Below, piece by piece: positions 1,533 to 28,581 of a stretch of DNA of 58,768 bases (positions are counted from its first letter, which is position 1; each line of letters opens with the position of its first letter). The notes beneath the pieces are model-generated. The model was not told where the DNA came from, ran no database searches, and was given only the letters and a program-made list of their open reading frames with translations. A program made the translations under genes and the position numbers. Source of the DNA: Nostoc sp. FACHB-152 (GTDB taxonomy: Bacteria; Cyanobacteriota; Cyanobacteriia; Cyanobacteriales; Nostocaceae); NCBI RefSeq assembly GCF_014697475.1, contig NZ_JACJRV010000046.1:1-58768 (forward strand), written 5' to 3'.

Positions 1533-2513
1533 ATGAGTAAACAACAGCCCGAACAAAACCCAAAGCTACCTCCGAAGCGCGGTCGTCCTGTAGATGCAGA
1601 GAAAGATCGCGTGACAGTCCATATTAATGTTGATATGCGGAGTCAAATTGAGAAGTTAATACCTGACATGGGTAAAAGCTTGTCAATGGTAGTTAGGAAC
1701 TTAGTGAATTTGGGTTTAGAGCTTGTTGGTTTATCTCAAAAGGGGCTTACTGCTCCTCGGTCAGGTAATTTGGAGGAGTGGCTTGCGAGTTATACGTCTT
1801 TGGGAACTGAGCTGCTTATAGCCTGTGAAACTTTAAATTTATCAGCTCCAAAATCAGGACAAATAGCTATTTGGCTTTTAGACAAAATGGCTTTTGGGTC
1901 AAATGACCCTCAAATCATTAATGAAGAAGATACTGGTACAAAGCTTTTAGAAAGAATTCGTTTAGGAAAGAAATTACAAACATTTAGCCTTGAACAAGGC
2001 ATAGAATTACCTGAAAATGAGGAATTTGCTACTTGGTTGGGGCAGCTATATACTAATGCTGTTATTGGGCAAGAGTTTTTAGCTGCTTGTCAGACGCTGG
2101 GTTTGCAGTTACCAGAGACAGGAAAACTACAGGAATGGTTACAAGATTTGGTGGAGCGATCGCGCAGCCTGTCTACAGTAGAATCCCAATTATCAAATGA
2201 GTTATTAGAAGAATGTGAGCGATTGGGGATAGATCCGCCAAAACCTGGTGAGGTTGGAGCGTGGCTACAAAATACCCGCCCTGCGGTATTTGAGGAGCCA
2301 ATGCACGAACATAGGTTACCTTTTACAGATGATGGTTTGCCTTTAGGGGGGTCGCAACCGTTTTTGGAGCATTTACTGACGCTAAATGCACCGCCAACAG
2401 AAGATGAGGAGTATGACATTGCTAATAGGTTTGGTGTAGACCCAGCGCATCTGAAGGAACTCATATCGCGTATGAGATTTGACAGGAACGGACAGACAAA
2501 TAATTGTCATTAA
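1533..2513 (+). CDS. CopG/Arc-like N-terminus plus P..G..WL repeats
   Basis: 326 residues, cytoplasmic. The first 25 residues are basic (LPPKRGRPV). The next segment (RVTVHINVDMRSQIEKL, then VVRNLVNLGLEL) has the beta-helix-helix rhythm of a ribbon-helix-helix DNA-binding domain. After that come about five copies of a 40-50-residue unit with the core LGL..P..G.L..WL: GLTAPRSGNLEEWLA, NLSAPKSGQIAIWLL, GIELPENEEFATWLG, GLQLPETGKLQEWLQ and GIDPPKPGEVGAWLQ. I do not recognise the repeat family. A DNA-binding head with a repeated tail suggests a plasmid partition, copy-control or regulatory protein. The 2534 gene follows after 20 bp. Confidence 0.75.
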   Translation: MSKQQPEQNPKLPPKRGRPVDAEKDRVTVHINVDMRSQIEKLIPDMGKSLSMVVRNLVNLGLELVGLSQKGLTAPRSGNLEEWLASYTSLGTELLIACETLNLSAPKSGQIAIWLLDKMAFGSNDPQIINEEDTGTKLLERIRLGKKLQTFSLEQGIELPENEEFATWLGQLYTNAVIGQEFLAACQTLGLQLPETGKLQEWLQDLVERSRSLSTVESQLSNELLEECERLGIDPPKPGEVGAWLQNTRPAVFEEPMHEHRLPFTDDGLPLGGSQPFLEHLLTLNAPPTEDEEYDIANRFGVDPAHLKELISRMRFDRNGQTNNCH

Positions 2514-2533
2514 TTTGCTGAGGGGATAAATGC

Positions 2534-3355
2534 ATGGATGCCATTGAAGATTCCTCAACATTGTGGACTTTATTATCTAGACCTGGATGGGAGATTAAGC
2601 CGAATCCAGTAAAGCATTTACTCAAAATTAAAGCTCCTGACTACCAGGAAGCATTAATACTTTATACTAACTATCGAAAATTTCTAGCGACGTGGGCAGC
2701 GTCTCTCAACTGTACCTGTGCTTTGATTGGAATTCAGGGGATGCGCGGATCTGCATTTAAAATTCTTGCAGCAACGCCAGCATCGCAGCAGAAGTTATAC
2801 GAAGACTTAATTTTTGCAAGCTTACAAAAGTCGGTTCGTCTTGAATCTAATGGACTGGCCGAAAGCGATCGCTACGCCCACCGCAGGCATCGCTACTTTG
2901 AGGATAATATCTACGAATCTCCAGGCTTTTACATTGCCGAAACTTTTTTGTACCCTGAACTCAGACCAATTGTTGATGAAGTATTTTCAAACCCAGAAAA
3001 GAAACTTGCTTTAACACGAATGTCTGACAATTTTCAATTGATCGTGTCTGCATCAGCAGCACGGGCAATGAGTTCTGACTCACAAGATGTGGTGCGTCGT
3101 CGAACCACAGATTTTTGGCACGCTAGAGACTACCAGATTTTCATACAGAAGTTTGAGCAAGATGGTAGCACAGGTTTTGAAATCACTTACCAGGCAACGA
3201 CAAATTTGCCCAAGACTAATCCTTTAGCAGCGTGGGCACAGTTTACTACGAGTTATAGGTTTTTTGAGATTGATATAGGCGGGCGCAGGGAAGTTTACCG
3301 TTTGGGCGAAGGTAAAGACATTACACCCATCAGTCGTCCCAAGGTTGTTTCATAA
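2534..3355 (+). CDS. Unrecognised cytoplasmic protein, 273 aa
   Basis: ATG at 2534 is preceded by AGGGG at 2521-2525. No family recognised, and no signal peptide or membrane segment. Near residues 110-122 the sequence SDRYAHRRHRYF is encoded by a HIP1-type interspersed repeat (GCGATCGCTACGCC...GCAGGCATCGC), a repeat common between genes in Nostoc-type genomes. Here it sits in frame inside the gene and probably adds a surface loop. It lies in one direction with the genes at 1533 and 3369, with gaps of 20 and 13 bp, so the three probably form an operon. Confidence 0.7.
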   Translation: MDAIEDSSTLWTLLSRPGWEIKPNPVKHLLKIKAPDYQEALILYTNYRKFLATWAASLNCTCALIGIQGMRGSAFKILAATPASQQKLYEDLIFASLQKSVRLESNGLAESDRYAHRRHRYFEDNIYESPGFYIAETFLYPELRPIVDEVFSNPEKKLALTRMSDNFQLIVSASAARAMSSDSQDVVRRRTTDFWHARDYQIFIQKFEQDGSTGFEITYQATTNLPKTNPLAAWAQFTTSYRFFEIDIGGRREVYRLGEGKDITPISRPKVVS

Positions 3356-3368
3356 TTAGCGAGGTTTT

Positions 3369-4220
3369 ATGGCAGTAAGATTCCTAGAAAACAAGGGCAG
3401 TGGCAATATCCTAGAGATTAGTAAAGCTAGGCTTTTAGAACTTACTCCTAATGTTTATCCCCTTACTTGGGAAGCCATTCTTTCAGGTAAAGGTGGTAGT
3501 GTAGCTATTTTGGGTGCAGGTTTTGCCGAGCGAGAAGTTTTTTTTGGTTTTGAAGAAGTTGACCTAACGCGCTACCAACTTCCGACAATCGACTGTTACG
3601 ACATTGCTACTAATCCGCCAGAAAAGTTTTTAGCTTTACGCAGCCAATACCCAAACCTACAGCTAAATTATTTTTGCGATCGCAATTTAGCAGAACTTGA
3701 ACTGACAAAACTTTACGCTCCTAATAGCCTACGGCTAGTTTCAGTTCATGGAGTATTAGATTACTTACAATCAGATGCGGTTACCAAAACATTACTTGAT
3801 ATTGTGAAAGTACAGCCAGAGGCAATATCGATACGCCTATTTTTAATAGGTAACCCGTGGTCGCGGAATTTTGCAAGTATAGAGCAACTGGCAATGGAAT
3901 TAAATTCAATTGAAATTATTATAAGTGGCTTAGTTAAGTCGATTGACTTTGATGTATTTTGTAGTACAGGTGTGATGCAATTAAATATTTCAGACAAGGA
4001 TAAAATTGAACATAATTTATTACCAAGTTATGGCGCATCCCATGTCATGCCTGATAAATTAGTTGCTTATTTAATTAATCAAGGATATCAACTTATTGCA
4101 ACTGATGTGTACTCACTTTCAAGTCAAGATTTACAAGGAGATAAATTGGAAAATACCAATAGTAATAAAAATGTATCTTTAGATAATCCACATGGAATGT
4201 TGTTATTTTTTAAAAGATAA
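3369..4220 (+). CDS. Possible SAM-dependent methyltransferase-like protein
   Basis: 283 residues, with a GAGG ribosome-binding site upstream of ATG 3369. Residues about 45-52 (VAILGAGFAE) resemble the glycine-rich loop of class I methyltransferases. This is followed by an acidic strand end (IDCYDIA) and later SLRLVSVHGVLDYL, where motif IV/post-motif residues would be expected. The match is weak: only the general Rossmann pattern is visible and no target-specific motif is seen. An alternative is a non-enzymatic Rossmann-fold protein. It is the last gene of the 1533-4220 cluster and has no obvious terminator after it. Confidence 0.6.
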   Translation: MAVRFLENKGSGNILEISKARLLELTPNVYPLTWEAILSGKGGSVAILGAGFAEREVFFGFEEVDLTRYQLPTIDCYDIATNPPEKFLALRSQYPNLQLNYFCDRNLAELELTKLYAPNSLRLVSVHGVLDYLQSDAVTKTLLDIVKVQPEAISIRLFLIGNPWSRNFASIEQLAMELNSIEIIISGLVKSIDFDVFCSTGVMQLNISDKDKIEHNLLPSYGASHVMPDKLVAYLINQGYQLIATDVYSLSSQDLQGDKLENTNSNKNVSLDNPHGMLLFFKR

Positions 4221-4559: not shown

Positions 4560-4808
4560 ATGAGTATCAAAAAACCCTTGGCTATCAACCAGCCAGAGGT
4601 GGGGCAGATCATTCATAATTTGCGGCTTGCCTTCAAGCTTACGCAAGAACAATTTGCAGCCACTGTAGGCGTTACTTATACCACGATAAATCGTTGGGAA
4701 AATGGACGCTCTAAACCGTCACCGATGGCGATGAAGCTTATTGAGCAGAAGCTTGATGAGATGGGCAGTAAGGGTCAGGATTTATTGGCTAAGTATTTAC
4801 CGAATTAA
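4560..4808 (+). CDS. XRE-family helix-turn-helix regulator
   Basis: 82 residues forming a single HTH_3 (Cro/C1-type) domain: VGQIIHNLRLAFKLTQEQFA, then AATVGVTYTTINRWENGRSK, then a C-terminal helix. The pattern R...LTQEQFA..VGV....I..WE.G matches the five-helix XRE fold, with the recognition helix at TYTTINRWENG. It is cytoplasmic and presumably a dimeric DNA-binding repressor or antitoxin-like regulator. It stands alone, upstream of the small acidic gene at 4902 and of the sacsin-DarT cluster. A role in controlling that cluster is only a positional inference. Confidence 0.85.
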   Translation: MSIKKPLAINQPEVGQIIHNLRLAFKLTQEQFAATVGVTYTTINRWENGRSKPSPMAMKLIEQKLDEMGSKGQDLLAKYLPN

Positions 4809-5428: not shown

Positions 5429-7999
5429 ATGGCAGGTTATCAAATTCCACCTGGAACAATTGTCAATAATATCAAAAGTTTATTGCGTGAGAGATATAAG
5501 CAAGGCTTTCCTATCATTAAAGAAATAATTCAAAATGCCAATGATGGACGAGCTACAACTTTAGAGTTTGGAATAGTGAAAGAACTGGGAGATGCAGTTA
5601 AGCATCCCCTTTTAAAGATACCAGGACTCTTTTTCCTCAATAATGGTACATTTTCTAAATCTGATAAAGAATCTATATCTTGCTTTGGCATTGATGCTAA
5701 TGCTAAAGATAAAGGGAAAATAGGTAAATTTGGACTTGGACAAAAGAGTATTTTTCATTTTTGTGAAGCCTTCTTTTATATTGCTCGTTCTCAGGATATT
5801 CAAGAAGGTTGCGGTGAATTTATTAATCCTTGGGCTAATCGTGATGGAATTGATTCTAAACGCCCAGAGTGGGGAGAAATTTCTCTTGAAGATCGCCAGT
5901 TTTTAGAAAATTATTTAATTCAGCAAAACTTAGTAAACCCTACATCTAATTACTTTTTATTATGGATACCACTGCGCCAAAGAATGCCAGATGAACGTTG
6001 TATTTTGGCTAACTATTATAATGATGCCAAATCAGTGGAATCCAACCTCCCTGAAGACATGAAAATGAGGATTGGGCAATTATTACCCTTGTTACGTCAT
6101 ATTAGAAAAGTTAGATATTGGCTAGAAAATAATAGTGGTTCTCTTCAAGCGCAATTTTCCGTTACTTTAGATAGCTATAATCCATGCGAACGCTGTATTT
6201 ATCCAAATTCAGAAAGTAAAACAATACAACAAGATGAACACGATTTGCAAGGGAGAATTATCATTAGTGCCGATGCAACAGGAATCCGGTTTGCAGGTAA
6301 AGAACGAATTTTACCAGAGAGTGACTTTTCATTACTACTAGGTCAAGATTCAGAAAGCGTATCAAATACTTTTTGGGATGATTTACAACAGTCACCTTAT
6401 TGGACAAAAAGAGTATCAATTAATGAATTGGCAGAATCAGAAAGTATACCTGATAAATCAATCCCTCATTGTGCTGTGGTTTTTACCAAGCAATCTCTAA
6501 ACAATAGACATAAAGCTAGGTTATTACTGCAATGGTCAGTTTTTCTGCCTTTAGCCAGTGATGAAACTAGTTATAGTTCAGAGGGAGCCGAACAAGAAGC
6601 CTACGAAGTCATTGATTGCAAAGGCGACCAAGATTATACAATTTTTTTACATGGCTATTTCTTTCTTGATTCTGGTAGAAAATATATTGAGGGATTGCAA
6701 AAAATTCGCACTGATGGGTTCGTGCAAAAGGCTCCTACGAATGAAGATGAAATGATAGCTCAGTGGAATTATTTGTTGGCTACTAAAGGAACTTTAAAAC
6801 TTTTTCTTCCTTCATTTGAAAAATTTGTGAAAACTCATAGTTTATCTACTCCAGATATATCTAATCTTTCGGAAGCAATTTTTCGATCGCAGTTATTCAA
6901 AAGTAAAGTATACAAACAGAGTATTTGTAGCGAGGCTCAGTGGGTATTTAGGATTAAATCATCTGGTAGTGCTTGGGAACTAATTCCGGTTAATGCAAAG
7001 GTGCGATCGCTACCTGGTGTTCCCCCCAACTGGGAAATCTTCCCTGGATTAAGCAATTTAGAAGAAAAGTATTATTTAATTGACAAAGAACAACCTAACC
7101 TCCTATCTAATGAAATATTAGTAGATTGGCAAAAGCAAGAAATTATTAATTTACTGACATCGTTAGATTTAAATTTACTTTTTGCTCAACCAAAAAATGT
7201 CAATTACTTTGTGAATTTTCTCAGCCAAAATAAGAAACTTATTGGGCAATCTGAAATTCAAACCTGCCTAATAAATATACTTCGACAAGCATTTATAACC
7301 ATTGGTGTCCAAAACCTCCAACAAGAGCAATTCAATGAAGCTGTTAAAAAAATAGTTGCATTAATTCATCCTGAAAAAAGGTTGAAACTTAAAAAAGTTA
7401 CTTATAGTGGGCAAGCTATACAACTTGTTTTAAACGCATTATATCAGCTAGATATTGAACAACCACTATTAATTTATGAATTATTTGAGTCAAATTCCTC
7501 TGCTAGTACTGGCTCTTTGAGTAATGAACAAGTAAAACTTACTCTAACTTGTCTTAGTCAATTATTAAAAACTGCAACTACCCAGACGGTAGCTAAAGAA
7601 ATTATTGAGCAAATTATTGAGCAGATTAATTCGCTGGAAACTGTTTTAAACCTTGTCTCGAATCTAGCTTTATTTTTTGGGTATAATCATCACCTGAATA
7701 AAACCTATATTTACTCCTACTTAGATTTACAAAAATCCAAGCAAAAATATTTGTTGTTTCGAGGTACTAAAAGAGACTATGAAACAGCGATCGCAACTGC
7801 TATAAAAGTAGCCTTGCCTGAATGCAGACTAATTTTCATAGAACCAAAAATTTCGCAGATTTTAGAAAAAACTAGCACCTTAAAAGCTATCCCTAAATTG
7901 GAGCCTCAAAGTTGCTTACAGCTTTTAGCTACAAAACCAGATTTAGGCAATTCCAGCCAACGAAGCAATTTATTGAAGGAGTTAATTAATCATGTCTAA
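5429..7999 (+). CDS. Sacsin-like GHKL ATPase protein
   Basis: 856 residues. The N-terminus carries a sacsin/HSP90-type ATP-binding (GHKL) domain: N-box IIKEIIQNANDG (Asn36 and Asp39 in the magnesium/ATP-binding helix), a G1-like PGLFFLNNG, and the lid motif GKFGLGQKS at residues 99-107. The rest is long, mainly helical and unrecognised. No membrane segment is visible. The stop overlaps the start of the next gene by 8 bp, and a DarG-like gene follows that one, so the product probably works as the ATPase or sensor partner of the sacsin-DarT protein. Related HATPase proteins occur in bacterial conflict systems; the exact role here is inferred. The start has a modest AAAAGAG upstream. Confidence 0.85.
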   Translation: MAGYQIPPGTIVNNIKSLLRERYKQGFPIIKEIIQNANDGRATTLEFGIVKELGDAVKHPLLKIPGLFFLNNGTFSKSDKESISCFGIDANAKDKGKIGKFGLGQKSIFHFCEAFFYIARSQDIQEGCGEFINPWANRDGIDSKRPEWGEISLEDRQFLENYLIQQNLVNPTSNYFLLWIPLRQRMPDERCILANYYNDAKSVESNLPEDMKMRIGQLLPLLRHIRKVRYWLENNSGSLQAQFSVTLDSYNPCERCIYPNSESKTIQQDEHDLQGRIIISADATGIRFAGKERILPESDFSLLLGQDSESVSNTFWDDLQQSPYWTKRVSINELAESESIPDKSIPHCAVVFTKQSLNNRHKARLLLQWSVFLPLASDETSYSSEGAEQEAYEVIDCKGDQDYTIFLHGYFFLDSGRKYIEGLQKIRTDGFVQKAPTNEDEMIAQWNYLLATKGTLKLFLPSFEKFVKTHSLSTPDISNLSEAIFRSQLFKSKVYKQSICSEAQWVFRIKSSGSAWELIPVNAKVRSLPGVPPNWEIFPGLSNLEEKYYLIDKEQPNLLSNEILVDWQKQEIINLLTSLDLNLLFAQPKNVNYFVNFLSQNKKLIGQSEIQTCLINILRQAFITIGVQNLQQEQFNEAVKKIVALIHPEKRLKLKKVTYSGQAIQLVLNALYQLDIEQPLLIYELFESNSSASTGSLSNEQVKLTLTCLSQLLKTATTQTVAKEIIEQIIEQINSLETVLNLVSNLALFFGYNHHLNKTYIYSYLDLQKSKQKYLLFRGTKRDYETAIATAIKVALPECRLIFIEPKISQILEKTSTLKAIPKLEPQSCLQLLATKPDLGNSSQRSNLLKELINHV

Positions 8000-10900
8000 G
8001 CAATTGCGTTACTTGTTACATGGAAATAAAGAAAAATACGAAGATATTACAACTCCTTTATATATCACTTCGCAAGAAAGTACAGTATGGCAAAAAGTTG
8101 GACAACAGGTTTTACAAATACGAGGTGAAGATTGGCGATTAATTGATCCGCTCATTGTTGAGTATATTCCCTCGGCTAAACGCCAAATACTGGGAATTAA
8201 ATTATTACAAACTGAAGAAGTTGTAGATTTAATTCGTGAATTAGGAGCAGACTGTGTAGATGGGAATTTACTAGAAGCATCTGAGAGATATGAGCTATTG
8301 CGCTATATTAGGCAAAGACCTAGTAATCAAGAGTTATGGAAATCTCTAAAACTCCATGAAACAGTCAATGGGGAGCTAGTTTCTATTGAATCTGGCAAAA
8401 TGTATTTAGAAAATCCAGATTTTACCCTTGATGAACGCCTGAAAAAATATATTATATTGATTCGCCAAAATAAACAAGAAATAGACCAAGAGTGGATTCC
8501 ATTTTGGACTCCAGATGAAGCAATAGCAAAAATTATCAATTTGACCAATCCTGAAAAATATTATAATTTAATTTTGAATGCTCTGCCACAATTGTCTACA
8601 TTAGAAAAAGATAAATGGGAAAGTGAACTAAAAAATCTTCAGTGGTTAGTGGATGTAGATAGTAAACCAATACAACCACGAGATGTAATTAAATTACCAA
8701 TAAATTTAGTACGACATCAACAGATGATCTGTACTTTAGATAATACCAAATATGGTGAACTATCTTTAAATCCCAGTATAAAAAATCATCCAGCATATAG
8801 TTATGTCAAAAAACTCTTTACCGTTTGGAAGACAGAAACTATCCTGGAACAAATTTTCGCTCGACCGAAAAAAACATTAGATTATTGGCGTGATTTTCTA
8901 CCAGTAATTTTAGACGCATTACAAGATATAGATATTTCTAAGAACCCAACATTAGAAACATTACTCACAACAGAAAGATGGCTAGTTTCTACTGATAAGC
9001 TAATTGCTCCTCAACAGGTAATTGAGATTGTATCCAAAGAAATTAGTAAACATTTATTTACATTGGTTGAGATAAGTGAAGGTGAATATGCAGAACTATC
9101 ACTTCTATCCCCAGATGTCCAAAATCACGATAGCTTGAAAATAGTCAAAAATCTGTTTTCTCGATGGAATGAAAATCATGTAATTGAGTTTATTCTGAGT
9201 CAGTCTCAACCTTACTTATATTTTGAGATTATTCTGGATGCTTTAAGTAGTGTATTTAGTAATGCAAATAAAAGGCTCTTAAAAGAGAATTATGAACAGC
9301 TGAAAATAGCACCTTGGCTTGTAGATATAAATGGAAATGCTGTTTATCCAGAAAATATTCTACATTATCCAGATATAGAAATAGAAATTGAAGAGTTACT
9401 ATTGAAAATTTCTAGTTCTTACATAACATCTTCACAATTAAATAAACAAATACGTAATTATGAAACTTGTTGGCAATGGTTATCTAAAGAATTATTTTTA
9501 ACTCAAGAGCAAGTATTGTCAGAAATTGGGACACTTTTAAAACAAGCAGATGACTACCAACTAGGAGAATTTGAAATCAATGAATTTCCATTAGATGAAG
9601 TTGTGCAAATCTTTAACAATATAGATGTTAGTTTTTTGCCAGTTTGGAATTTAGTTCAAAGAATTAGCTTAGAAAAATTTCAAAAATATCTACTTTCTAA
9701 TTTATTAGGTAGAATTGCTGAAGAAAAATTAATTAAAATTCTTCAAAATATTGCTGACTTAAATAATGAACCTGAAGCAATTACGATTAAAGTTTTTAAT
9801 TGTTACCTAAAATTAGCAATTCAATATAATAGCTTTTCACAAATCATAGGTCAAATTCGTTTACTTAACCATTACAATCAGTGGCAAACACCTGATAATT
9901 TAACTTGGGGAAATAGAGAAAATATTGATGGGGCCTATCTTCTCAATAAGGAGCAAACAGCAATTTTGCACCCTTATTTAAAAGATATACAGAAAAATAA
10001 TTCTTCAAATGCTTTACAAATTTCTGTAACAGCAACAGATGCAACAAACTCTGATGTTCTGCAAAATTACTTTCGGGCTTGGGAACAATATTGTCCTACA
10101 GAACCAATAGGTGCATTTTTAACTTTATTATATGGTAATGAAGGCAGTGTTAAAAACCTTGCTCATCTCTATTTAGGTAAACGAAATTTAGGCATCTTAC
10201 GCCAAAGATTATTTGAGTTTCAACCTGTAGCAAATCGCACCTTTCGTATCTATGTAGGTCAGGCAAGCGATCGCACTAGAGAAGTAGAGTCTATAATGGG
10301 CTTTACTTTTAAAGCAAGTCTCGTAAATACTAAAAATCCTCCTCATCTGTTTGTTAACAAACTTGCACCTGATGTTACAGAACTTGAGTTATTACCCATT
10401 CAACCTCAACATTTTATTCCCACACAATTAGTAAATATTTTAAAGAACTCTACAAAAATCTTATTGAAAGAAGTTTATGAAGTAACTCCCTCATCACTAA
10501 ATCAGATTTGGGAAGATTTATTAGAGTCTGATCAACTAGATATCCAAGTAGCGAAAAACTTTTTACTAGAAGGTGCGCCTTATGTAATGAGAATGCTAGG
10601 CGCACATGAACGTATTCCTCTGATTAAAACACTTTTGACAAATTGGGATAACTGTCGTCATCAGAGAGCAGAAATAAAGCAGCAAAATCGCTCTGTAGAG
10701 AATATCGATAAAAAAATTGAAAATCTGATTTCTGAATTATCTCATTTACTAGAAGATGAATCTTCAGAAAGTGAGGAGCTAAGAAAGCAGTTATTAGAAG
10801 CTGTACGAGCCAAGATAAATTTACACGGCTACAGGTGCCAAAGTATTCCATTTGAGTTATTTCAAAATGCTGATGATGCAGTAGTTGAATGGCAGTTTAT

Positions 10901-13871
10901 GTCATCCCAACAAAAACTTAATGATAGTAGAAAGCAATTTATTATTAAATTTGATGATAATAAAATTCAATTCATTCACGTAGGTAGACCAATTGGCTGT
11001 TTTCAACATCCTGACCACCCAGAGAAACAATATAGAGATAAAGGATTTGATCGCGACTTAGAAAAAATGTTAACTTTTAATATCTCTGATAAAGGAGAAG
11101 GAGTAACAGGGAAATTTGGCTTAGGATTTAAGAGTATTTATCTTGCTTGCAGAAAACCTTATGTATTAAGCAAAAATTTAGGTTTTTCTGTTGAAGGTGG
11201 GCTGATACCATCACGCTTAAAAGCACAAAAAGCCAGTGAACTTCGAGGCGATTTTAAACGCTATATCGGTTTATCCGATGCCACAATTATCGAATTGCAT
11301 CTTGAAGATAATCTAACTTGGCAAAATGTACTTCAAGATTTCCAATCTGTAGCTAATATTTTGTTAGTTTTTTCTAAAGCCATCAAAACCTGCAAATTAG
11401 TTGATTTCTATTGTCAAGAAACTACTTTACATTGGAATCCTTCTTCTGTTTTGAATATTCCGACAGTGGAAACAGGTAAATATCAAACTGCAAGTAATAC
11501 TCAAGATTCAATACTACTATGTCTAAAAACTGGCGGAGAAACAAAAGCCAGTTTAGTTTTAGGTCTATTTGAAAAAAACGGTTGCCTTTATAACGCTTTA
11601 CCAGAAAAGATACCAACTTTTTGGGTAACAGCACCCACAAGGGAAGAGTTATTTTTAGGTTTTGTTTTGAATGCTAACTTTGACATTACCACAGGCCGAG
11701 AAAGTTTAGTGAAGTCTTCAGTTCGTAACCGTGAGTTAGCGCAAGTTATAGGTAAAAATTTAGGAGAAGTTCTTCATAGCCTTTTCCGTGCCAGTGAGGG
11801 TAACTGGCAAGCTTTGGCAAAAACTTTTGGTTTTACAAATATTGATGAATATGAGTTTTGGAACTTCTTATGGAAGGAGTTGGCAGTTCGTTGGCAGCAA
11901 AAAGACCCCAGTGAAGGAATTGATATTATCAGTAATATGTTGGCGGGCGATCGCGCTATGGGTTATCTCATCACTCGCTGTCAGTCTTTACCCAGTGGTT
12001 TGTATGGTCGCTACCGTCAACTCGTCTCACTTGATAATGTGAACTATAAATTAACAGGTAAAATCTCAGAGCAAAACACTTTTTTACAAGTCGCAAATTG
12101 GCCAGGGTTTCAGCAACAGTATCAGAATAACCTCATCGCCCGTGATAAATGGCAAGAAGTTAAGAAACTATTAGGAGAGGATTTTGTTCAAACACATTAT
12201 GTTGTCAATGATTTACGGTTAGTTGATATATTAAAAAATGAAATAGGAAAGAATCAACCAAGAGTGGGGGCATCCCAAGCTATATATGTTGGTAGTCTGA
12301 TTTCCGAAAATTTTATTAATAACTTTAGTGCAGCTTATGAACTTAATGAACTTCAGAGTTTTTTAAAGACAGTTTACTTTATGTCTAAAGCTGGTAGTTA
12401 TTTGCCTTGCCAGCAACTATTAATCAGTAATCCCAATGCTATTGAAGAAAAATTGTTAGTTGATTTTGCACCAGATAGCCGCATCCTCCACAGTGAATAC
12501 AAGGATACTGCTTTAGGTTTCTTCTATGCTTGTCGTTCCCGAAGAGACAGTATTTCCAAAGACGAAATTATTAGATGGGTGCTACAAGCAGCAACTGAAG
12601 AGCAGCGTAAAGCTGTATATATATATCTTTTGCAGGGAGAGCAACGAGAAGAAATAGCATCTAGTTTATATGCTAATCGACAGCTTTATTGGTTTGCCAA
12701 TGATAAACAGATAATAGACATACTTGAGCTTATGGTACTGATTGTCATTGAAAGAGGAGACACTTTACCACCGATAACTATAAATCCGATTCCAGAAGAT
12801 AAACCAGAAACAGATGACTATAATCCTTTCTTTGAAATTCATACTAATTGTACAGAGGATGATTTTTCTTTACAGAGAACACCAGAACAAATAGAAGAAT
12901 TTGCACGTAAACTTCAAGCAGGGTTAAATCGTCAAAATTCCTCTTGGAAAGGATACATCTACCACTTTACTCACGTTGAAAATGCTGTTTCAATTCTCAC
13001 AGATAGAAAACTTCTAGCCAGAAATCTTTGCCGAAAATTCAGCGATTCAGCCGGCGCAAACCTTATTGACCGCACCAGAAGCAATGTAAAAGATTTTGCA
13101 CGTTTCTATTGCCGACCACAAACTCCAACTCAGTGGCATAATGAGGGGTTGGGCAAACGTAGAGGAAATATTTATGCTCTTTGTCCTGTACCAATTTTCT
13201 TCCGCTTCAATCTAAAGCGAGTCCTGGAAACTCATGGCAGCAAATGTGGTATAAGTAGTGGGAATCTTGCAGCTTCAGGCTCTCATTATGGTAACAGTAC
13301 AACTTTCTTGGAGCAGTGTTTTGATTTTGATCATGTCTATTCTACACTGGCAGTTGGTAAAGAAACTTTTTTGAGAGCATCCCAACAAGAATTTATCGTT
13401 CATAGTTACCTCGATTTTACTGAGTTAAATTTAGAGGATATAAGTATTATTTGTCGAACAACTCAGGATAAAGAAACTTTATTAAACCTCATTGGTACAG
13501 ACTCACAATATGCTAGTCGAGTATTTAAAGAACGAGAAATAGTTGCTGAGGGTAGTTTGTTTTATCATGATAACCCTTATGTATCAATTAAGGACGAGGG
13601 AAATTTTATTGATGTCAAAATTGATAACTACGATAAATATGGAAATATCAATGGGGAATTAATTCTGAGTTTTACAGAAGATCCTCCATTTAATCGAGAA
13701 ATTATTTCGCCGTTCAGAGATATTTCAAGAATTAAACTTGGAGAATATATGAATATTAGTTCATCTCGTCATCTCCAGTTACAATATAAACCTAATACTC
13801 GTATGAATATTAAATTTCAAGAAAACAGTCAGGAATGGTTAATTTATACAAATGAGCCTCAAAATTATTAA
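7992..13871 (+). CDS. Sacsin-like GHKL ATPase fused to DarT-like ADP-ribosyltransferase
   Basis: 1959 residues. The N-terminal half holds at least three related segments (cores LQWLVDVDSKPI, ERWLVSTDKLIA, APWLVDINGNAV), two followed by similar 60-residue blocks beginning ELSLNP or ELSLLSP. At about 950-1050 lies a second GHKL domain: FELFQNADDAVVE (Asn959, Asp961-962) and GKFGLGFKSIY from Gly1040. From about residue 1651 a DarT-type (DUF4433) domain follows: YIYHFTHVENAVSIL, ARFYCRPQTPTQWHN, then FDFDHVYSTL and QQEFIV, where Glu1800 fits the catalytic glutamate. DarT enzymes attach ADP-ribose from NAD to thymidine in single-stranded DNA. After it comes a beta-rich tail. The gene overlaps the macrodomain gene by 20 bp, as expected for a toxin with its antidote. 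The fusion reads continuously, with no internal stop. Confidence 0.85.
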   Translation: MSKQLRYLLHGNKEKYEDITTPLYITSQESTVWQKVGQQVLQIRGEDWRLIDPLIVEYIPSAKRQILGIKLLQTEEVVDLIRELGADCVDGNLLEASERYELLRYIRQRPSNQELWKSLKLHETVNGELVSIESGKMYLENPDFTLDERLKKYIILIRQNKQEIDQEWIPFWTPDEAIAKIINLTNPEKYYNLILNALPQLSTLEKDKWESELKNLQWLVDVDSKPIQPRDVIKLPINLVRHQQMICTLDNTKYGELSLNPSIKNHPAYSYVKKLFTVWKTETILEQIFARPKKTLDYWRDFLPVILDALQDIDISKNPTLETLLTTERWLVSTDKLIAPQQVIEIVSKEISKHLFTLVEISEGEYAELSLLSPDVQNHDSLKIVKNLFSRWNENHVIEFILSQSQPYLYFEIILDALSSVFSNANKRLLKENYEQLKIAPWLVDINGNAVYPENILHYPDIEIEIEELLLKISSSYITSSQLNKQIRNYETCWQWLSKELFLTQEQVLSEIGTLLKQADDYQLGEFEINEFPLDEVVQIFNNIDVSFLPVWNLVQRISLEKFQKYLLSNLLGRIAEEKLIKILQNIADLNNEPEAITIKVFNCYLKLAIQYNSFSQIIGQIRLLNHYNQWQTPDNLTWGNRENIDGAYLLNKEQTAILHPYLKDIQKNNSSNALQISVTATDATNSDVLQNYFRAWEQYCPTEPIGAFLTLLYGNEGSVKNLAHLYLGKRNLGILRQRLFEFQPVANRTFRIYVGQASDRTREVESIMGFTFKASLVNTKNPPHLFVNKLAPDVTELELLPIQPQHFIPTQLVNILKNSTKILLKEVYEVTPSSLNQIWEDLLESDQLDIQVAKNFLLEGAPYVMRMLGAHERIPLIKTLLTNWDNCRHQRAEIKQQNRSVENIDKKIENLISELSHLLEDESSESEELRKQLLEAVRAKINLHGYRCQSIPFELFQNADDAVVEWQFMSSQQKLNDSRKQFIIKFDDNKIQFIHVGRPIGCFQHPDHPEKQYRDKGFDRDLEKMLTFNISDKGEGVTGKFGLGFKSIYLACRKPYVLSKNLGFSVEGGLIPSRLKAQKASELRGDFKRYIGLSDATIIELHLEDNLTWQNVLQDFQSVANILLVFSKAIKTCKLVDFYCQETTLHWNPSSVLNIPTVETGKYQTASNTQDSILLCLKTGGETKASLVLGLFEKNGCLYNALPEKIPTFWVTAPTREELFLGFVLNANFDITTGRESLVKSSVRNRELAQVIGKNLGEVLHSLFRASEGNWQALAKTFGFTNIDEYEFWNFLWKELAVRWQQKDPSEGIDIISNMLAGDRAMGYLITRCQSLPSGLYGRYRQLVSLDNVNYKLTGKISEQNTFLQVANWPGFQQQYQNNLIARDKWQEVKKLLGEDFVQTHYVVNDLRLVDILKNEIGKNQPRVGASQAIYVGSLISENFINNFSAAYELNELQSFLKTVYFMSKAGSYLPCQQLLISNPNAIEEKLLVDFAPDSRILHSEYKDTALGFFYACRSRRDSISKDEIIRWVLQAATEEQRKAVYIYLLQGEQREEIASSLYANRQLYWFANDKQIIDILELMVLIVIERGDTLPPITINPIPEDKPETDDYNPFFEIHTNCTEDDFSLQRTPEQIEEFARKLQAGLNRQNSSWKGYIYHFTHVENAVSILTDRKLLARNLCRKFSDSAGANLIDRTRSNVKDFARFYCRPQTPTQWHNEGLGKRRGNIYALCPVPIFFRFNLKRVLETHGSKCGISSGNLAASGSHYGNSTTFLEQCFDFDHVYSTLAVGKETFLRASQQEFIVHSYLDFTELNLEDISIICRTTQDKETLLNLIGTDSQYASRVFKEREIVAEGSLFYHDNPYVSIKDEGNFIDVKIDNYDKYGNINGELILSFTEDPPFNREIISPFRDISRIKLGEYMNISSSRHLQLQYKPNTRMNIKFQENSQEWLIYTNEPQNY

Positions 13872-14541
13872 TGGCAATTTATTTACTTCAAATTGTCAAA
13901 CACTGGTAAACACCGTCAACTGTGTGGGAGTGATGGGTGCAGGTATTGCATTAGAGTTCCGCCTGAGATATCCAGAAATGTATACAGATTATGTAGAAAT
14001 ATGTAATCGAAATTTGATGGATATTGGTAAACTGTGGTTGTATAAATGTGAAAAACATTGGGTTCTTAACTTCCCAACTAAAAAACACTGGAAGAAATCA
14101 TCAAAGTTAGAATATCTGGAATTGGGTTTGCAAAAATTCGTCGATACCTACATAGAAAAAGAGATAACTTCTATCGCTTTTCCTCTGCTTGGAACACAAA
14201 ATGGAGGAATTCCCCAAGAGCAATCTCTAGAAATTATGAATAGGTATTTAGGTGAATGTGAATTACCTATAGAAATATATATATACGATCCTCAGACACC
14301 TGATGATATATTTAATGAATTAAAAACTATTTTTCTTTCACTATCAGATAGAGAAATTGTAGAGGGAACTGGATTGGCGAAAACATACATTAAAAAAGTC
14401 AAGCAAGCAATGCAAGAAGAAAATATATGTAATTTATCTAAATTTCTATCAACGAAAGGAATAGGAATTACTACAGTACAAAAAACTTTACTTCTACTCC
14501 AAAAATTTTACCCAACTATCTTACCTAACACTAACCAATAA
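13852..14541 (+). CDS. DarG-like macrodomain antitoxin
   Basis: 229 residues. A macrodomain occupies residues 1-150: LKIINGNLF at the N-terminus, NTVNCVGVMGAGIALEF (ADP-ribose-binding loop), NFPTKKHWKKSSKLEY, and FPLLGTQNGGIP. These are the hallmarks of DarG N-terminal domains, which remove ADP-ribose from thymidine in DNA and so undo DarT damage. The remaining 75 residues are helical and unlike the typical longer DarG C-terminus, which binds DarT directly. The ATG lies inside the end of the sacsin-DarT gene in another frame, implying coupled translation and tight stoichiometry. By analogy it should be the immunity factor of the three-gene system. Confidence 0.88.
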   Translation: MSLKIINGNLFTSNCQTLVNTVNCVGVMGAGIALEFRLRYPEMYTDYVEICNRNLMDIGKLWLYKCEKHWVLNFPTKKHWKKSSKLEYLELGLQKFVDTYIEKEITSIAFPLLGTQNGGIPQEQSLEIMNRYLGECELPIEIYIYDPQTPDDIFNELKTIFLSLSDREIVEGTGLAKTYIKKVKQAMQEENICNLSKFLSTKGIGITTVQKTLLLLQKFYPTILPNTNQ

Positions 14542-14735: not shown

Positions 14736-16187
14736 TCACTCAATTTCAGCTTCCTGCCAACCTTTAATTGCTCCTACAATAAAAGCACCTACAGGATTAT
14801 CAATGGCTTTCTCGAAAGCTTGAAGGCCACCCTCTCTAACTGCGTTTACAACTCGTTGTTTCCAAGTTGAGTCACTTTCTATACGCTCAATAGCTTTTGT
14901 TGCAACTACCATCTGCTCCGTTGTGGTATTGGTGGGGTAAGTCTGCTCTAGCTGTTGCAGAAGCTGTTGAATTTCTGCGGCGGCTTCAGCAAGAGTCTGC
15001 TTCTGCTCAGAAGGGTAGTTGTTGATGGTGCCACCAAGTTGATTAGCCTCAACGTTCTCACTATAGCCAACACCAATTGATGCCCCACTTTGATTAATAT
15101 TTATTTTGCGCTCTGACATAGTTTCTACATAATTTTGATTGTTGCTCATGGTAACATTGCCTCCTGTGATTGTGATTCTTTGATGATTAATTATCTGATT
15201 ACCAAGTTTCTGTCTCCTTGTATCTATCACCTTAGTTACTACAGCATCAGTATCTGACCGAAGCTGCGATAGAGAGTTCAACAAATCTTGGATATCGTAC
15301 TCATCACTAATTTCAATTCCTTGATGTGGAGACTGGATCTGCCCAGCAACAAGATGGAAGCGATCGCAAAGAAATTTAATTAATTTCAGTGGTTCTTTTG
15401 CACTTTGACCAACTTGACAGTAATCTTCCCAATTTGCCTGAAACACCTGGGTAACACTTTTTTGCAGAGAAAAATATAGTACAGCAGCATGGGAAGTATC
15501 ATGCACTGAAATAGATGCTGTTATACAACTAGAAAGCAAAGCCTTATCTATTTCGCTCTCAAGGGATTTGAAACCAAGCAGTTGAGCCAAAGATGAATGA
15601 ACAGTACATATCAACTTGACTAGAGACAGTTCATCAATAGTCATTTCTTCTGGCAGTGGTAGATTTTTTAACTTCCAAGATACCGAAAGAATTTTTGCTG
15701 CATAAATGCCAAGGAGAAATGTCCATAATTCGCCATGAGCTAACTTCTGTTCTCCCTCGGCTAACACATCCTGTAACCAACGCAAATTTTGTGAGCTAAC
15801 CTTTGAGCAAGAGCTAACACCAAGCGATATACCCAATAGTTCTACGGGTCGATAGAAAAACGAAGCGCGATCTGAAGGAAATGCTTCACGAGAGGCTAGC
15901 CGCGCCACACCGTTTGCCCAAGCTGACAAAAAACTTTCACCAAAAACTCTACCACAAGCAAGCTCATAACCCACAGCAGCAAGAATAGGTGCTTGATGTA
16001 GTCGCCTTGGTTCTAAACTGTTAATTACTGCATCTGTTGCCAAACTAAAAGGTGGCTGGCTATCAGCACGGTAAAAAATATAACGTGCAAAGCCACTGTC
16101 TGGTGATTCCCAGTTATAGCTTGCTCTCAGATAATCTGTTAGAAAATCTAATTGATAACCGAAGCTTCTTGCTACTGCATCTGTCAT
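14736..16187 (-). CDS. Argonaute-coupled protein, candidate effector
   Basis: 483 residues from ATG at 16187, chosen because this ATG overlaps the Argonaute stop codon as ATGA; an upstream in-frame start at 16238 lies inside the Argonaute gene. The first 330 residues are mixed helical and unrecognised, with no clear nuclease, SIR2, TIR or membrane motif. Residues about 340-400 are beta-rich and Asn/Gly-rich (ITITGGNVTMSNNQNY, SGASIGVGYSENVEANQ). The last 80 residues (EQKQTLAEAAAEIQQLLQQL, then KQRVVNAVREGGLQAFEKA and GAIKGWQEAE) match a C-terminal module seen in many cyanobacterial multidomain proteins. Inactive long Argonautes usually have an effector encoded next door; this one would be of a type I cannot place. 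Confidence 0.75.
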   Translation of the reverse strand: MTDAVARSFGYQLDFLTDYLRASYNWESPDSGFARYIFYRADSQPPFSLATDAVINSLEPRRLHQAPILAAVGYELACGRVFGESFLSAWANGVARLASREAFPSDRASFFYRPVELLGISLGVSSCSKVSSQNLRWLQDVLAEGEQKLAHGELWTFLLGIYAAKILSVSWKLKNLPLPEEMTIDELSLVKLICTVHSSLAQLLGFKSLESEIDKALLSSCITASISVHDTSHAAVLYFSLQKSVTQVFQANWEDYCQVGQSAKEPLKLIKFLCDRFHLVAGQIQSPHQGIEISDEYDIQDLLNSLSQLRSDTDAVVTKVIDTRRQKLGNQIINHQRITITGGNVTMSNNQNYVETMSERKININQSGASIGVGYSENVEANQLGGTINNYPSEQKQTLAEAAAEIQQLLQQLEQTYPTNTTTEQMVVATKAIERIESDSTWKQRVVNAVREGGLQAFEKAIDNPVGAFIVGAIKGWQEAEIE

Positions 16188-18514
16188 AAAAACCACTTGC
16201 TTGCACGAAGTTTTATATTGAGCAATGCAGGTGACCAATCTCGAATATTGCGAAGGCGGGCAAGTAGTTCGGCAATTAGTTCAGAGTAGTAGATAGTGAC
16301 AGGTTTGCTAGCTGGAAGCAAGGAACGCCACGATAATGATGTAAACTTTAACACTTGTTCAGAAAGATACGTTAAGTCACGATAAGTAGACTGTGGGTGT
16401 AGGTGAATTAATAAAGGGGTTGGTAGAGGCGATCGCGCCATTTTCACTAATGCTGGGCCGTTAGTACACAAAAGTCGGGTATATCTTCCAAGTTGCACAA
16501 TTATGCCTCGTTGTGGTGCTAATTGTCCTTTTTTAGCACCATCTTTGAGAGAAATACCTTGTTGTGACTTATCTAGCAGAGTAAACGGGTGTTCGTGAGA
16601 AACTGTTAGGAAAGCAAATTCAATATTTTGTTCTTCTCCAACCTCTGCAACGCACTGTGCCACAATATCTGCAACATCAAGGTTCTTGAAAGGTCTTGCA
16701 GCATGAAATACAAGGCGAATAGTATCTCCTGGTTGCCAACCGTTGCGTCGCTTAATGTCCTGTAAGATTGATACAGTAGATGTTTTCAAAATATTTGGAT
16801 ATTCAGAATAAGAACACTCTTGGGAAAGATTGCCCAAGAGGTAGTTCCCATCACCTCTAAAAACTGTTGTGATACCTACAAACCTTTGTCGCTCAAAGAA
16901 GCGACTCCCAGAAAGTTCACAGTTTCCTATGCCAATGACCAGTTCATCGCTAATCGTCAGATCATGATCTACTGTCCACGGCAACCCGTTCATTTTGGCG
17001 TAGAGAGCAACACTGAGATTTTGCAGCGTGTATTGCAATGAATAACGTGATTGCCCCAGAGTAGATGCCCGAATACCTTGCACAGGGATTCCAGCCATTA
17101 GTAACAGAGCTTTGGACTGAAGATATGGATTCTCTGAGTCTGGAAGCCTTGCGTGTTCGTCTAAGACAATAACGATAGCTGCATCTGGCATGGTTTTTTC
17201 TAAAACCTGCGCCACAGCTTCTCTATAAGCGACTGCTGGCGGTTTCTGTTTACTATTGAGCCAGGGAATTTGCCGCAGAGTCAACTTAGGATTAACAAGA
17301 CCAAAAATTTTGGCAAATCCACCTGAGTATTTGGAGTTTTCCTCCCAATATTCAATCCCATCTTGAAATACTTTTTTCTTGATACTAATTCCGTCTCGAA
17401 ATGATTTTAAAAAATTTTCCACTGCACCCTGAACGGTATCTGGAAAAATAACCAATATTTCAGGGGATTTTTTTGAGAAAATCTCACGGCTAAAAGGCCC
17501 GTATTTCTCGATTCCACTCCAAGCATATAAACTTCGTTTTGTTCTGGCTGCATCAAAGCAATACTCTACTGGTGAAGCAGAAATCACTGTTTGGTAACTA
17601 TCATCATTCACTGCTTCAATACGACCTTTAACATAAGCAGATAAATTGGGTGCAAGCTGCATAGGAGATTTTTTTGCTAGAAAGGTCTCCATGCGAGTCA
17701 AAATATTGTCTAGTGCAGGGCCAGTTAAAAAATTAGCTTCTTGAATAAATCTTTCTGATTCAAAGACATCATAATTATCTCCCAGCAATGTTTTAAGGCA
17801 ACGGACAAAAGACGTTTTGGAGCCTTCTAGCCATACTTCATCTTCATTGATAGAAGTAATCCCATCAAATGATTCTAATAAATTAACCGTTCCTTCACAT
17901 ATATGACTGATTTTTCCAACCAAACGGCGTTGTCCTGGTTGAGGTTGGCGACGAACAACATATAAATCTTGAAGATTCACTCCTGCATTTTGTAGATCGC
18001 TCAGGGATGCAAGGATTTCCCAACGAGTTTCTAATCGCAGGAATAGACCAATAAATGTCTCCTCGTGGCGGAGTTCAACCAACTTTGCTTCAAGTGCAAA
18101 TTTAGGTTTAATTTTGAAGGCAGAAATTAGTGATGGTAAGTCTTTGATTTTAGTAGCAATAGAACTGACTAATTCCTCTTTTTGAGCAAGGAATGTGAAG
18201 GGTTTAAATCGAAAAACTGAATATTGGTAAAATATATCTGGCAAGGCACTATTAATGCGATCTGCTAGAAGTTGCAGGTGTTCGTCACACTTCAGTTCAA
18301 CGGGTTTACCAAAACTTTGTGTTAGCTGAGATACGTTAACTTTAGGAATTCCGTAGACTTTACCAGCTCGCCAATGAAGAAACCAGTCAGGCTGGAGTTG
18401 TTCTCGTAATGCTCGTAGTCCTCTATTATCTGGCATATCTTGAACATACGCAGTGAAGGTGTTAGCGGAAAGTTCTACCTTAAATCCGTTGAAGCACATG
18501 GACATATCTAACAC
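16184..18514 (-). CDS. Long prokaryotic Argonaute with inactive PIWI domain
   Basis: Up to 776 residues; GTG at 18514 or ATG at 18505 is the likely start. The MID region keeps the guide 5'-end pocket: Tyr464 and Lys468 (NPYLQSKALLLMAGIPVQG), Gln479, and Lys507 (YAKMNGLPW). The PIWI domain has lost its catalytic DEDX residues. The first Asp is replaced in LVIGIGNCELS (Gly530 at the expected place) and the third in LVFHAARPF (Ala606). It should therefore bind a guide and target but not cut, as in long-B Argonautes that trigger a partner effector on sensing invader nucleic acid. PAZ-like sequence is not obvious, though the N-terminal 420 residues are long enough for N and PAZ-like domains. The partner gene overlaps by 4 bp. 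Confidence 0.85.
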   Translation of the reverse strand: MLDMSMCFNGFKVELSANTFTAYVQDMPDNRGLRALREQLQPDWFLHWRAGKVYGIPKVNVSQLTQSFGKPVELKCDEHLQLLADRINSALPDIFYQYSVFRFKPFTFLAQKEELVSSIATKIKDLPSLISAFKIKPKFALEAKLVELRHEETFIGLFLRLETRWEILASLSDLQNAGVNLQDLYVVRRQPQPGQRRLVGKISHICEGTVNLLESFDGITSINEDEVWLEGSKTSFVRCLKTLLGDNYDVFESERFIQEANFLTGPALDNILTRMETFLAKKSPMQLAPNLSAYVKGRIEAVNDDSYQTVISASPVEYCFDAARTKRSLYAWSGIEKYGPFSREIFSKKSPEILVIFPDTVQGAVENFLKSFRDGISIKKKVFQDGIEYWEENSKYSGGFAKIFGLVNPKLTLRQIPWLNSKQKPPAVAYREAVAQVLEKTMPDAAIVIVLDEHARLPDSENPYLQSKALLLMAGIPVQGIRASTLGQSRYSLQYTLQNLSVALYAKMNGLPWTVDHDLTISDELVIGIGNCELSGSRFFERQRFVGITTVFRGDGNYLLGNLSQECSYSEYPNILKTSTVSILQDIKRRNGWQPGDTIRLVFHAARPFKNLDVADIVAQCVAEVGEEQNIEFAFLTVSHEHPFTLLDKSQQGISLKDGAKKGQLAPQRGIIVQLGRYTRLLCTNGPALVKMARSPLPTPLLIHLHPQSTYRDLTYLSEQVLKFTSLSWRSLLPASKPVTIYYSELIAELLARLRNIRDWSPALLNIKLRASKWFL

Positions 18515-19273: not shown

Positions 19274-22200
19274 ATGGCCATAGTCAGAGCTATCCCAGAA
19301 CAAGGTCAACTGGTTAACGTTCGCTCCCGGCAATTCGTTGTTACGGATGTGCGTAATACGACTTTACCCACCAATCCAATGCTGAGTGCAGTGGAAAAGA
19401 CCCAGCATTTGGTTAGTCTATCCTCTGTTGAAGATGATGGTTTGGGAGAAGAATTACAAGTAATTTGGGAATTGGAGCCTGGGGCAGTAGTTTATGAAAA
19501 GATGGAGTTGCCCAAACCCACAGGATTTGACCCACCTGGGAGGTTAGATGCTTTTCTTGACGCTGTGCGCTGGGGGGCAGCATCAACAGCTGATATTCGC
19601 ACTTTACAATCCCCCTTTCGCAGTGGCATCGATATTGAAGATTATCAGCTTGACCCAGTAGTACGAGCAATTCAAATGCCTCGCGTTAATTTGCTGATTG
19701 CAGATGATGTTGGGTTGGGTAAAACCATTGAGGCGGGGTTAGTTGCTCAAGAATTAATTATCCGTCATCGCTGTCGGCGCATTTTAATAGTGTGTCCATC
19801 TTCACTGCAAATTCAGTGGCGAGACCAAATGCGCGATAAGTTTGGTTTGGATTTCCGCGTTGTGGACAGTGCCTTAATGAAGGAATTGCGACGGAAGCGG
19901 GGAATTCACGTCAACCCTTGGCAACATTTTCCCCGGTTAATTACTTCGGTAGATTTTCTCAAACGCGATCGCCCTCTGCGCTTATTGCGCGAAATCTTAC
20001 CCGCAGAAGGCGAACCGATGTATCCCCGGCGATTTGATTTGCTGATTGTGGATGAAGCACATAATGTTGCCCCCTCTGGCGGTGGGAACTATGCTGTGGA
20101 TTCTTTGAGAACGGCTGCTATTCGGTTTTTAGTGCCGCATTTTGAACACAAGTTATTTTTAACAGCGACACCACATAACGGCTATCCCGAAAGTTTTACT
20201 GCACTGTTGGAATTACTGGATAGTCAACGCTTTGCACGCGGAGTAGCACCAGACCGCAAGCAGTTACAAGTAATCATGGTTCGCCGTCTCAAATCGGAGA
20301 TGAAAGGTTGGGACGGTTCTGACTTATTTCCACAGCGTTTGTTAGAAGCAATTCCTGTAGATTATCCCGCAGCCGAACGCCAAGCACACGCTGCTCTTAA
20401 GCGTTATACCGAATTGCGCTGCAAAGGAGTAAAAGATAATACAGAAAAATATGCCACTGAATTTGTGCTGAAACTGTTAAAAAAGCGGCTGTTTTCCTCT
20501 CCTCAAGCCTTCGCTCTCACTCTCGCCCAGCATGAAGAATCTCTACAAAATGCCCGTCGCCGCACTTCTAGCAGTTTATCCCGGCCAACCGAAGGAATTT
20601 TACGCCGTCAGTTAGCACAAATTGAAGAAGATTTTGCAGATGATGAGGTTTATGAAGAATCAGCAGATGAGGCAATTACTAATACAACTCGGTTATTTAG
20701 GGAACTGAGTGCAGAAGAACAGACGCTGCTGCGGCAGATGCGAGAATGGGCAGAGACAACATCAAATACTTTAGATGCCAAAGCTAGAGAATTACTGAAT
20801 TGGATTAATACCTACATTAAACCAGGTGGTAAATGGTCTAACGAAAGAGTAATAATTTTTACAGAATATCGAGCTACACAGAAATGGTTATATAACTTAT
20901 TTGCCACAGAAGGGTTAGTAGATGGCGATCGCCTAATGACGCTTTATGGTGGCATGAAATCAGAAGACCGAGAACAGGTAAAAGCAGCGTTTCAAGCATC
21001 CCCTGATATTTCTCCAGTGCGAATTTTGCTGGCGACGGATGCGGCGAGTGAGGGTTTGGATTTGCAGAATTTCTGTTCACGCCTCATTCACTACGAAATT
21101 CCTTGGAACCCGAACCGTATGGAACAGCGTAACGGTCGAATTGATCGTCACGGGCAAAAAGCTAAAGAAGTGAGGATTTACCACTTTGTCGGTAAAGATT
21201 ATCAACATAATGCAGCGACTGGCCTACGTCCTGGTGAGTTGGAAGGGGATTTAGAATTTCTCATGCGGGCGGCTTTGAAAATTAACAACATCCGCGAAGA
21301 TTTAGGTAAGGTGGGGCCAGTGATTGCGGCGCAGGTGGAAGAAGCGATGATGGGGTATCGCAGCGTTTTGGATACTTCAGTCGCAGAAAGGGAATCTGAA
21401 GTTGTACGGCGGATGTTAAAGTTTGAGCGTCAGGTGCGGGAGCAAATTGAGAAACTAAGGGAACAGCTAGATGAAACGCGCCAGCATTTGCGGCTGACAC
21501 CGGATAATATTGAGGCGGTAGTCAAAATTGGTTTGGAATTAGCCCAACAACCAGCTTTAATTGCTACCGAGGTAGAGGGAGTAAATGGACAAGCATTTTA
21601 CCTACCACCATTAAAAAGTAGTTGGGCAGTTTGCAGCGAAGGTTTAGCCCATCCCCACACTAAAAAAATTCGTCCGATTGTTTTTGACCCGGAATTAGCA
21701 CATGGTAGAGATGATGTAGTGTTAGCGCACTTAAATCATCGTTTGGTGCAGATGTGCTTGCGCTTGTTACGTGCTGAAGTTTGGTCAAAAGAAGGTAGAA
21801 AAGCTTTGTACCGGGTAACGGCGCGTTTAGTTCCTAATTCGGTGTTGGATACACCAGCAGTTATTGCTTACGGTCGATTGGTGATTTTAGGTAGTGACCA
21901 GCAAAGATTGCATGAGGAAGTAATTACGGCGGGTGGGTTGATCAAAGAAGGAAAATTTAGCCGTTTGGGTGTGATGAAAATTCAAGAAGCTTTAGCAGCC
22001 GCTTTACCAGAATTAGCACCGGAAAATATCACGCAGAGATTAGCCCAGTTATGGGATAGTCATGCACCGTCTTTAATGCAAGCTTTGGAGGCGCGGATGC
22101 AAGACCGTAGTAAAAGTTTACAACGAGATTTAGGCGATCGCGCTGCAAAAGAGGCAGCTGATATTACGGCGATTTTGACGGAACTGCGTCAAAGCATTCT

Positions 22201-22423: not shown

Positions 22424-22505
22424 TGTTACCGAGAGGATTGGATAACTTACTGAGAATAAAATTCATTTATTTTGTGACATCTAGAAAATTTTTATTGGAA
22501 ACCAA

Positions 22506-23762: not shown

Positions 23763-23829
23763 TTTCAAACTTATCGCTAACTTGATCGTGTAACTCTTCA
23801 AATTATAATCTCTCCCTTATTTATTTCCT

Positions 23830-28005: not shown

Positions 28006-28028
28006 GGAATAGGGAATGGGAGGATAAG

Positions 28029-28525: not shown

Positions 28526-28581
28526 ATTCTCACAACACGATAGCAGTAATGTATCATTCTTACTAAACTGAGGAAGAATTT

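Follow-up and report, generated by a model that had tools for sequence, protein, structure and literature searches.

Sacsin-like ATPases joined to a DarT-type end and a DarG-type macrodomain gene in Nostoc sp. FACHB-152: a candidate anti-phage platform with exchangeable C-terminal cassettes

Three overlapping genes in a 58,768-nucleotide stretch of DNA from Nostoc sp. FACHB-152 (contig NZ_JACJRV010000046.1 of an 8.6 Mb genome; hereafter the window) encode two sacsin-like ATPases, the second ending in a DarT ADP-ribosyltransferase fold, and a short DarG-type macrodomain protein. The same order of domains recurs in related loci, with the DarT end coupled to DarG and exchanged for other ends on homologous ATPases. 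We consider it probable (roughly 60%) that the trio is an anti-phage sensor in which the sacsin-like ATPases act as a gate on a DNA ADP-ribosyltransferase whose leak is cleared by DarG, the platform also accepting other warheads. In its layout, the trio resembles a DarTG pair remodelled to serve as the output of a receptor related to sacsin.

Gene 1 (5429..7999, + strand, 856 aa), gene 2 (7992..13871, +, 1959 aa), and gene 3 (13852..14541, +, 229 aa) overlap by 8 bp and 20 bp respectively. The open reading frames confirm the arrangement and overlaps described in an earlier, sequence-only reading of this DNA, and the identities it assigned (sacsin-type ATPases, DarT, and a DarG-type macrodomain) are borne out by Pfam, NCBIfam, and PADLOC profiles. 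The N-terminal Hsp90/GHKL ATPase domain of gene 1 (residues 11–235, 5459..6133, +) passes the cut-offs of both Pfam SACS (PF25794, 1.9e-17, 64.3 bits, cut-off 32.8) and the NCBIfam sacsin N-terminal domain (5.4e-19, 68.4 bits, cut-off 50), and the N-box residues E32, N36, and D39 are shared by 27 of the 28 gene 1 rows, with L077 lacking that stretch. The SACS match of gene 2 (PF25794, residues 944–1062) falls under the Pfam cut-off (20.1 against 32.8); the modelled structure of its Hsp90/sacsin-type ATPase domain (residues 903–1149, 10698..11438, +), a domain also proposed by the sequence-only reading, fits sacsin SR1 best. The G1-type motif of this domain has diverged to GRPI, so that ATP binding by gene 2 may be weak. 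No HEPN or DnaJ domain was detected by Pfam in the window genes, and the homologue P0058 carries a DnaJ domain (PF00226). Upstream of the trio lies a small helix-turn-helix gene (4560..4805, +), XRE-like by sequence inspection and not part of the core, which in the DNA available for the 34 loci searched occurs only in the window and L002 (89% identity). Three further genes at 1533-4220 (+), with no family match over cut-off, are likewise otherwise found only in L002 (60–88%) among these 34 loci.

The predicted DarT fold occupies residues 1640–1858 of gene 2 (12909..13565, +), with residues 1657–1836 matching DarT PF14487 at 3.4e-24 and 86.1 bits (cut-off 22.5), in agreement with the proposed assignment. 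The QQEFIV motif singled out in the sequence-only reading is present, its Glu (residue 1800) being invariant in 23/23 aligned rows and corresponding to Thermus DarT E160 in the register of the profile alignment. Following the residue roles given for the Thermus enzyme in the available text of PMC9967889, the equivalent of the NAD-pocket residue Y71 is found in 23/23 rows, and those of H13 and N19 in all 20 rows with letters there. Candidate positions for the catalytic R51 hold Arg in 10 and 11 of the 23 rows, in a part where the alignment is uncertain, and R1704 of gene 2 is invariant, yet aligns away from Thermus R51. The position of Thermus M78 (PMLY motif) is Thr in all 23 DarT rows, and membership of the Thermus-like DarT2 subgroup was rejected on this ground. 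The domain is best classed as a divergent DarT, a predicted enzyme whose activity and base specificity are not certain, given that the positions aligned with R51 lack a conserved Arg and that Thr stands in for M78. Its partnership with a macrodomain rather than a NADAR protein suggests thymidine in single-stranded DNA as a possible target (available text of PMC11543638). DarT and DarG are both under purifying selection, with dN/dS of 0.10–0.22 in two pairs. The DarT fold is followed by a C-terminal tail (residues 1862–1959, 13575..13868, +), beta-rich and possibly an Ig/FN3-like sandwich from weak matches.

The fusion of DarT to the sacsin part recurs outside the window. At least 37 of the 120 gene 2 homologues listed (from 252 matches) are DarT-ended, with 27 of these spanning 1,928–1,971 aa, and some are named after DarT or DUF4433 in public records. 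The closest named homologues among the matches listed are from Nostoc, Nodularia, and Anabaena. In the phylum sample, 43 of 386 genomes have some form of DarT, and only 4 have the ~1,960-aa DarT frame. The sacsin chassis formed by genes 1 and 2 is found in 7/386 genomes of the phylum, 12/388 of the class, 17/388 of the order, and 12/217 of the family sample, these samples overlapping and the counts including broken copies.

Gene 3 matches Macro (7.3e-17) and PADLOC DarG (3.1e-52), its first ~151 residues aligning with DarG profiles as anticipated, and its residues K77 and W80 are equivalent to K80 and W83 of Thermus DarG (alignment to 5m31) and invariant in 20/20 rows. As the match to the NCBIfam DarG equivalog NF048014 (169.5 bits, covering 2–152 of 338) lies below the cut-off of 250, gene 3 is filed here as a DarG-type macrodomain protein only, and a putative antidote. 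Its C-terminal 77 aa (14308..14538, +), with a conserved GIGxxTVxK, may form a helix-hairpin-helix DNA-binding element; HHH_3/HHH_5 matches, all below cut-offs, have E-values of 0.0023–0.14 in 4 of 7 proteins scanned and are absent from the window copy.

A survey of gene neighbourhoods recovers the trio well beyond the window. Among 14 DarT-ended loci, DarG lies directly downstream of gene 2 in all 14 (split in the decayed L047) and gene 1 upstream in 12, with L044 beginning inside gene 2 at a contig edge and no gene 1 found in L047. Gene 2 is intact in 11 of the 14, being broken in L045 and L047; these 11 show a gene 1/gene 2 overlap of 8 bp in 10, the exception being L077 (1 bp, with gene 1 split), and a DarG overlap of 20 bp in 9 and 11 bp in 2. 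DarT also occurs at the C-terminus of another giant protein, on a Hymenobacter plasmid (L062/L084; NZ_CP043645.1, 4314-9389), which has no other Pfam match and is located after an AAA-protein gene; no macrodomain gene is annotated in the 20 kb inspected, and DarT fusions are thus not always coupled to DarG.

Judging by the homologous sequences, the sacsin chassis carries at least three kinds of interchangeable 3' cassette, namely DarT with DarG, a NO VEIN (NOV) nuclease-like domain, and a helical tail with a DrmD-like helicase. The ends of the 120 listed homologues comprise 37 DarT, 22 NOV, 47 helical-tail, 9 other, and 5 truncated, and the 34 loci with context comprise 14 DarT-ended, 8 NOV, and 12 helical-tail. 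The latter counts come from 37 loci after removal of L056 (the same system as L046 in another strain), L004 (the other piece of the L044 genome, without a 3' end), and L057 (broken up beside insertion sequences, with no effector end found), with L075 and L076 also left out as repeats of L005 and L003. As the loci are related (L036 and L037 are near-copies), these counts represent non-independent events, and 3 of the NOV and 6 of the helical-tail loci had themselves served to build the profiles that labelled them. Three NOV ends exceed the Pfam NOV_C cut-off. Intact DarG is absent from all 8 NOV and all 12 helical-tail loci (0/20). In the helical-tail loci (L039, L041, L046, L048-L050, L052-L055, L058, and L082) a DrmD-like helicase adjoins downstream in 12/12, 11 of these being 48–83% identical to the L046 copy, and in L039 the tail is a separate gene. 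The ~270-aa helical tail on the sacsin chassis, together with its helicase, forms a second candidate system, also present in Deinococcus.

In a quick tree of the chassis, built from 115 of the 120 proteins (short ones excluded) and 29 loci and comprising 135 rows after identical sequences were dropped, the DarT, NOV, and helical-tail ends require 8 changes against a minimum of 2, with 28 of 132 inner branches unresolved and long branches limiting finer branching. A single clade was rejected for the DarT-ended chassis (AU p 4.5e-33) and for the NOV-ended chassis (AU p 3.2e-5), both with 90 rows. Taken with the 8 changes, this means that the ends have changed repeatedly, by gain or loss. In the pairs L005/L003 and L077/L080, whose chassis share at least 70% identity, one member ends in DarT and the other in NOV. 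Furthermore, the DNA 3' of gene 2 in the NOV-ended L079 and L080 retains a DrmD-like helicase remnant of 94–95 residues (87–88% identical to L046) together with a DarG that is missing its N-terminal 66 residues and is 83–84% identical to that of the DarT-ended L077. We read these remnants as showing the fossils of a swap, including one case of DarG left behind.

The centre of gene 2 (~residues 146–1345, 8429..12028, +) is mosaic when compared with the relative L002, with DNA identity of 58–85% per 300-base block. Gene 1, DarT, and gene 3 are 91–98% identical in most blocks, the exceptions being a single block of gene 1 (85%), the linker that precedes DarT (74%), and the tail (83%). Values of dS follow the same pattern: gene 2 residues 1–930 and 931–1640 reach 0.50–0.57, gene 1, DarT, and gene 3 stay at 0.15–0.22, and the tail lies between at 0.33. 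We read the centre, from this one pair, as a replaced recognition region and a possible sensor or specificity region. L004 shows no identity step up to the contig end, and L036 shows only a mild dip (0.77–0.81 at 8429-10228 against 0.82–0.92 elsewhere).

In the mechanism we favour, genes 1 and 2 would each supply one half of a double-ATPase platform of the sacsin type, and a trigger, probably a phage component, would be recognised by the long centre of gene 2. In response, an ATP-driven, Hsp90-like rearrangement would free or align the C-terminal DarT. DarT would then ADP-ribosylate DNA and stop replication of the phage, and probably also of the cell, with the macrodomain protein removing ADP-ribose leaked from the resting toxin. 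The same platform would take the NO VEIN nuclease-like domain, or the helical tail with its DrmD-like helicase, in place of DarT. That the ATPases act as sensors or gates for DarT, as the sequence-only reading proposed, fits several patterns: genes 1 and 2 form one protein in 41 of the 120 gene 2 homologues listed (none of these DarT-ended), effectors are swapped on one chassis, DarG accompanies the DarT end alone, and gene 2 has a mosaic middle when compared with one near relative. The antidote-free warheads on the same chassis suggest that the chassis itself probably holds its effectors in check, and that DarG would be required against leak even from a gated DarT. The setting is also in keeping with defence, as the window trio stands next to DISARM genes and a long-type Argonaute and the L038 trio between DISARM-type genes.

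The trio may instead be a constitutive DarTG on a sacsin scaffold, in which low-level DarT activity is permanent and constantly neutralised by DarG, the sacsin part does no more than localise or stabilise the toxin, and phage interference with DarG is the trigger. The coupling of DarG in 14/14 DarT loci, mostly by the 20-bp overlap, supports this account, and on a Klebsiella plasmid a stand-alone DarT adjoins a DarG that is likewise of the short type (53% identity). However, the NOV and helicase forms of the chassis persist without intact DarG, which argues that the chassis has a role independent of DarG, and the end is swapped while the chassis stays; we find this account unlikely. A stress or protein-quality-control device, in which misfolding sensed by a sacsin-like chaperone leads to DarT-mediated arrest of replication, would draw on the description of eukaryotic sacsin as a chaperone in the available text of PMC3710099. 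It would also draw on the DnaJ domain of P0058. The patchy distribution of the chassis (7/386 genomes), its defence-island setting, and its mosaic and swapped parts form a pattern usual for defence genes, and make this the least credible of the explanations considered.

A further explanation, improbable in our view, is that the sacsin-like pair does not act independently and is an accessory module of a DISARM-type or other multi-gene defence, working with a DrmD-family helicase and its neighbours. DISARM genes lie near the window trio (DrmD, DrmMI, DrmA, DrmB, and DrmC, with a UvrD-like helicase between, 19274-38528, +), the L038 trio sits between DrmMI and UvrD/DrmA genes, and one NOV form is located before PglZ. 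The helical-tail cassette is accompanied by a DrmD-like helicase in 12/12 loci, and distant DrmD-like helicases (25–30% identical to L046) occur in 4 of 14 DarT loci (the window, L002, L005, and L043), that of L002 beginning ~0.4 kb after DarG. The window DISARM, however, has its own DrmD, a close relative of the cassette helicase occurs in 0/14 DarT loci, and no DISARM match was obtained among 4 scanned neighbours of L001, L036, and L042. When 10 neighbours of 5 DarT loci were compared with PADLOC, 4 had no match at 1e-5 (two at L001, one at L036, and one at L043), and a neighbour in L042 had only a weak match.

The trio shares with DarTG (DarTG2) the DarT fold with its NAD-pocket residues and catalytic Glu, and an adjoining macrodomain gene with the K80/W83 equivalents. 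It differs in that the toxin forms the C-terminal end of a 1959-aa sacsin-like ATPase and is not a free small protein, on which ground a plain two-gene toxin-antitoxin operon was rejected; in the 77-aa C-terminus of gene 3, where canonical DarG has a long one; in the R51 and M78 positions; and in the ATPase gene upstream in 12/14 DarT loci. As in eukaryotic sacsin, Hsp90-like SR1 ATPase domains occur more than once, gene 1 passing the SACS cut-off and the gene 2 model fitting SR1; unlike sacsin, the window proteins lack HEPN and DnaJ by Pfam, are split in two, and end in DarT. The NOV-ended and DrmD-helicase-linked proteins have the homologous gene 1/gene 2 chassis in the same order, but a different C-terminal end and no intact DarG; NO VEIN (DUF3883) is called a novel REase domain in the available text of PMC3710099. 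PADLOC TmtA matches the ATPase domains weakly and partially (3.3e-10 for gene 1, 2.2e-9 for gene 2), over only ~80–115 residues of models 1063–1782 long, and no literature on this candidate defence protein appeared among the matches listed. A TmtA-like fragment, P0129 (512 aa), is itself fused to DarT, which follows the TmtA-like stretch, and adds another HATPase-type family to those that end in DarT.

Among the openly accessible journal papers listed, no title or abstract on DarT with sacsin, or on sacsin in defence, describes the trio arrangement; the available portion of PMC8195603 mentions sacsin once and DarT not at all, and that of PMC8011034 mentions neither. The DarT-sacsin fusion is visible in databases and, as far as searched, undiscussed. 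More broadly, and with somewhat less than even odds, bacterial sacsin-like proteins may constitute an Hsp90-type immune receptor family with a two-ATPase chassis whose central sensor recombines and whose C-terminal warhead can be swapped, and eukaryotic sacsin, itself a HEPN-containing chaperone, may follow the same plan. The warheads would be a DNA ADP-ribosyltransferase with its own antidote, a nuclease-like NOV, and a tail working with a helicase. If our favoured mechanism is correct, the trio represents a gated form of DarT, a DNA-tagging toxin inside a large ATPase rather than a free toxin held by an antitoxin. Bacterial sacsin-like proteins, for which no established role appeared among the literature matches listed, would gain a testable one as immune platforms with exchangeable weapons, and would offer a simple bacterial system for asking what paired sacsin/Hsp90-like ATPases do. 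The natural DarT/NOV swaps L005/L003 and L077/L080 are ready-made experiments.

Elsewhere in the window, a long-type prokaryotic Argonaute (NCBIfam, 890 bits) and a helical-REase partner gene occupy 14736-18514 (-). Two HEARO RNAs (Rfam), the RNA of IscB/IsrB-type elements, lie at 451-684 (-) and 56712-56930 (-), with scores of 124.5 and 158.3 bits, the second adjoined by a 439-aa open reading frame at 55411-56730 (-).
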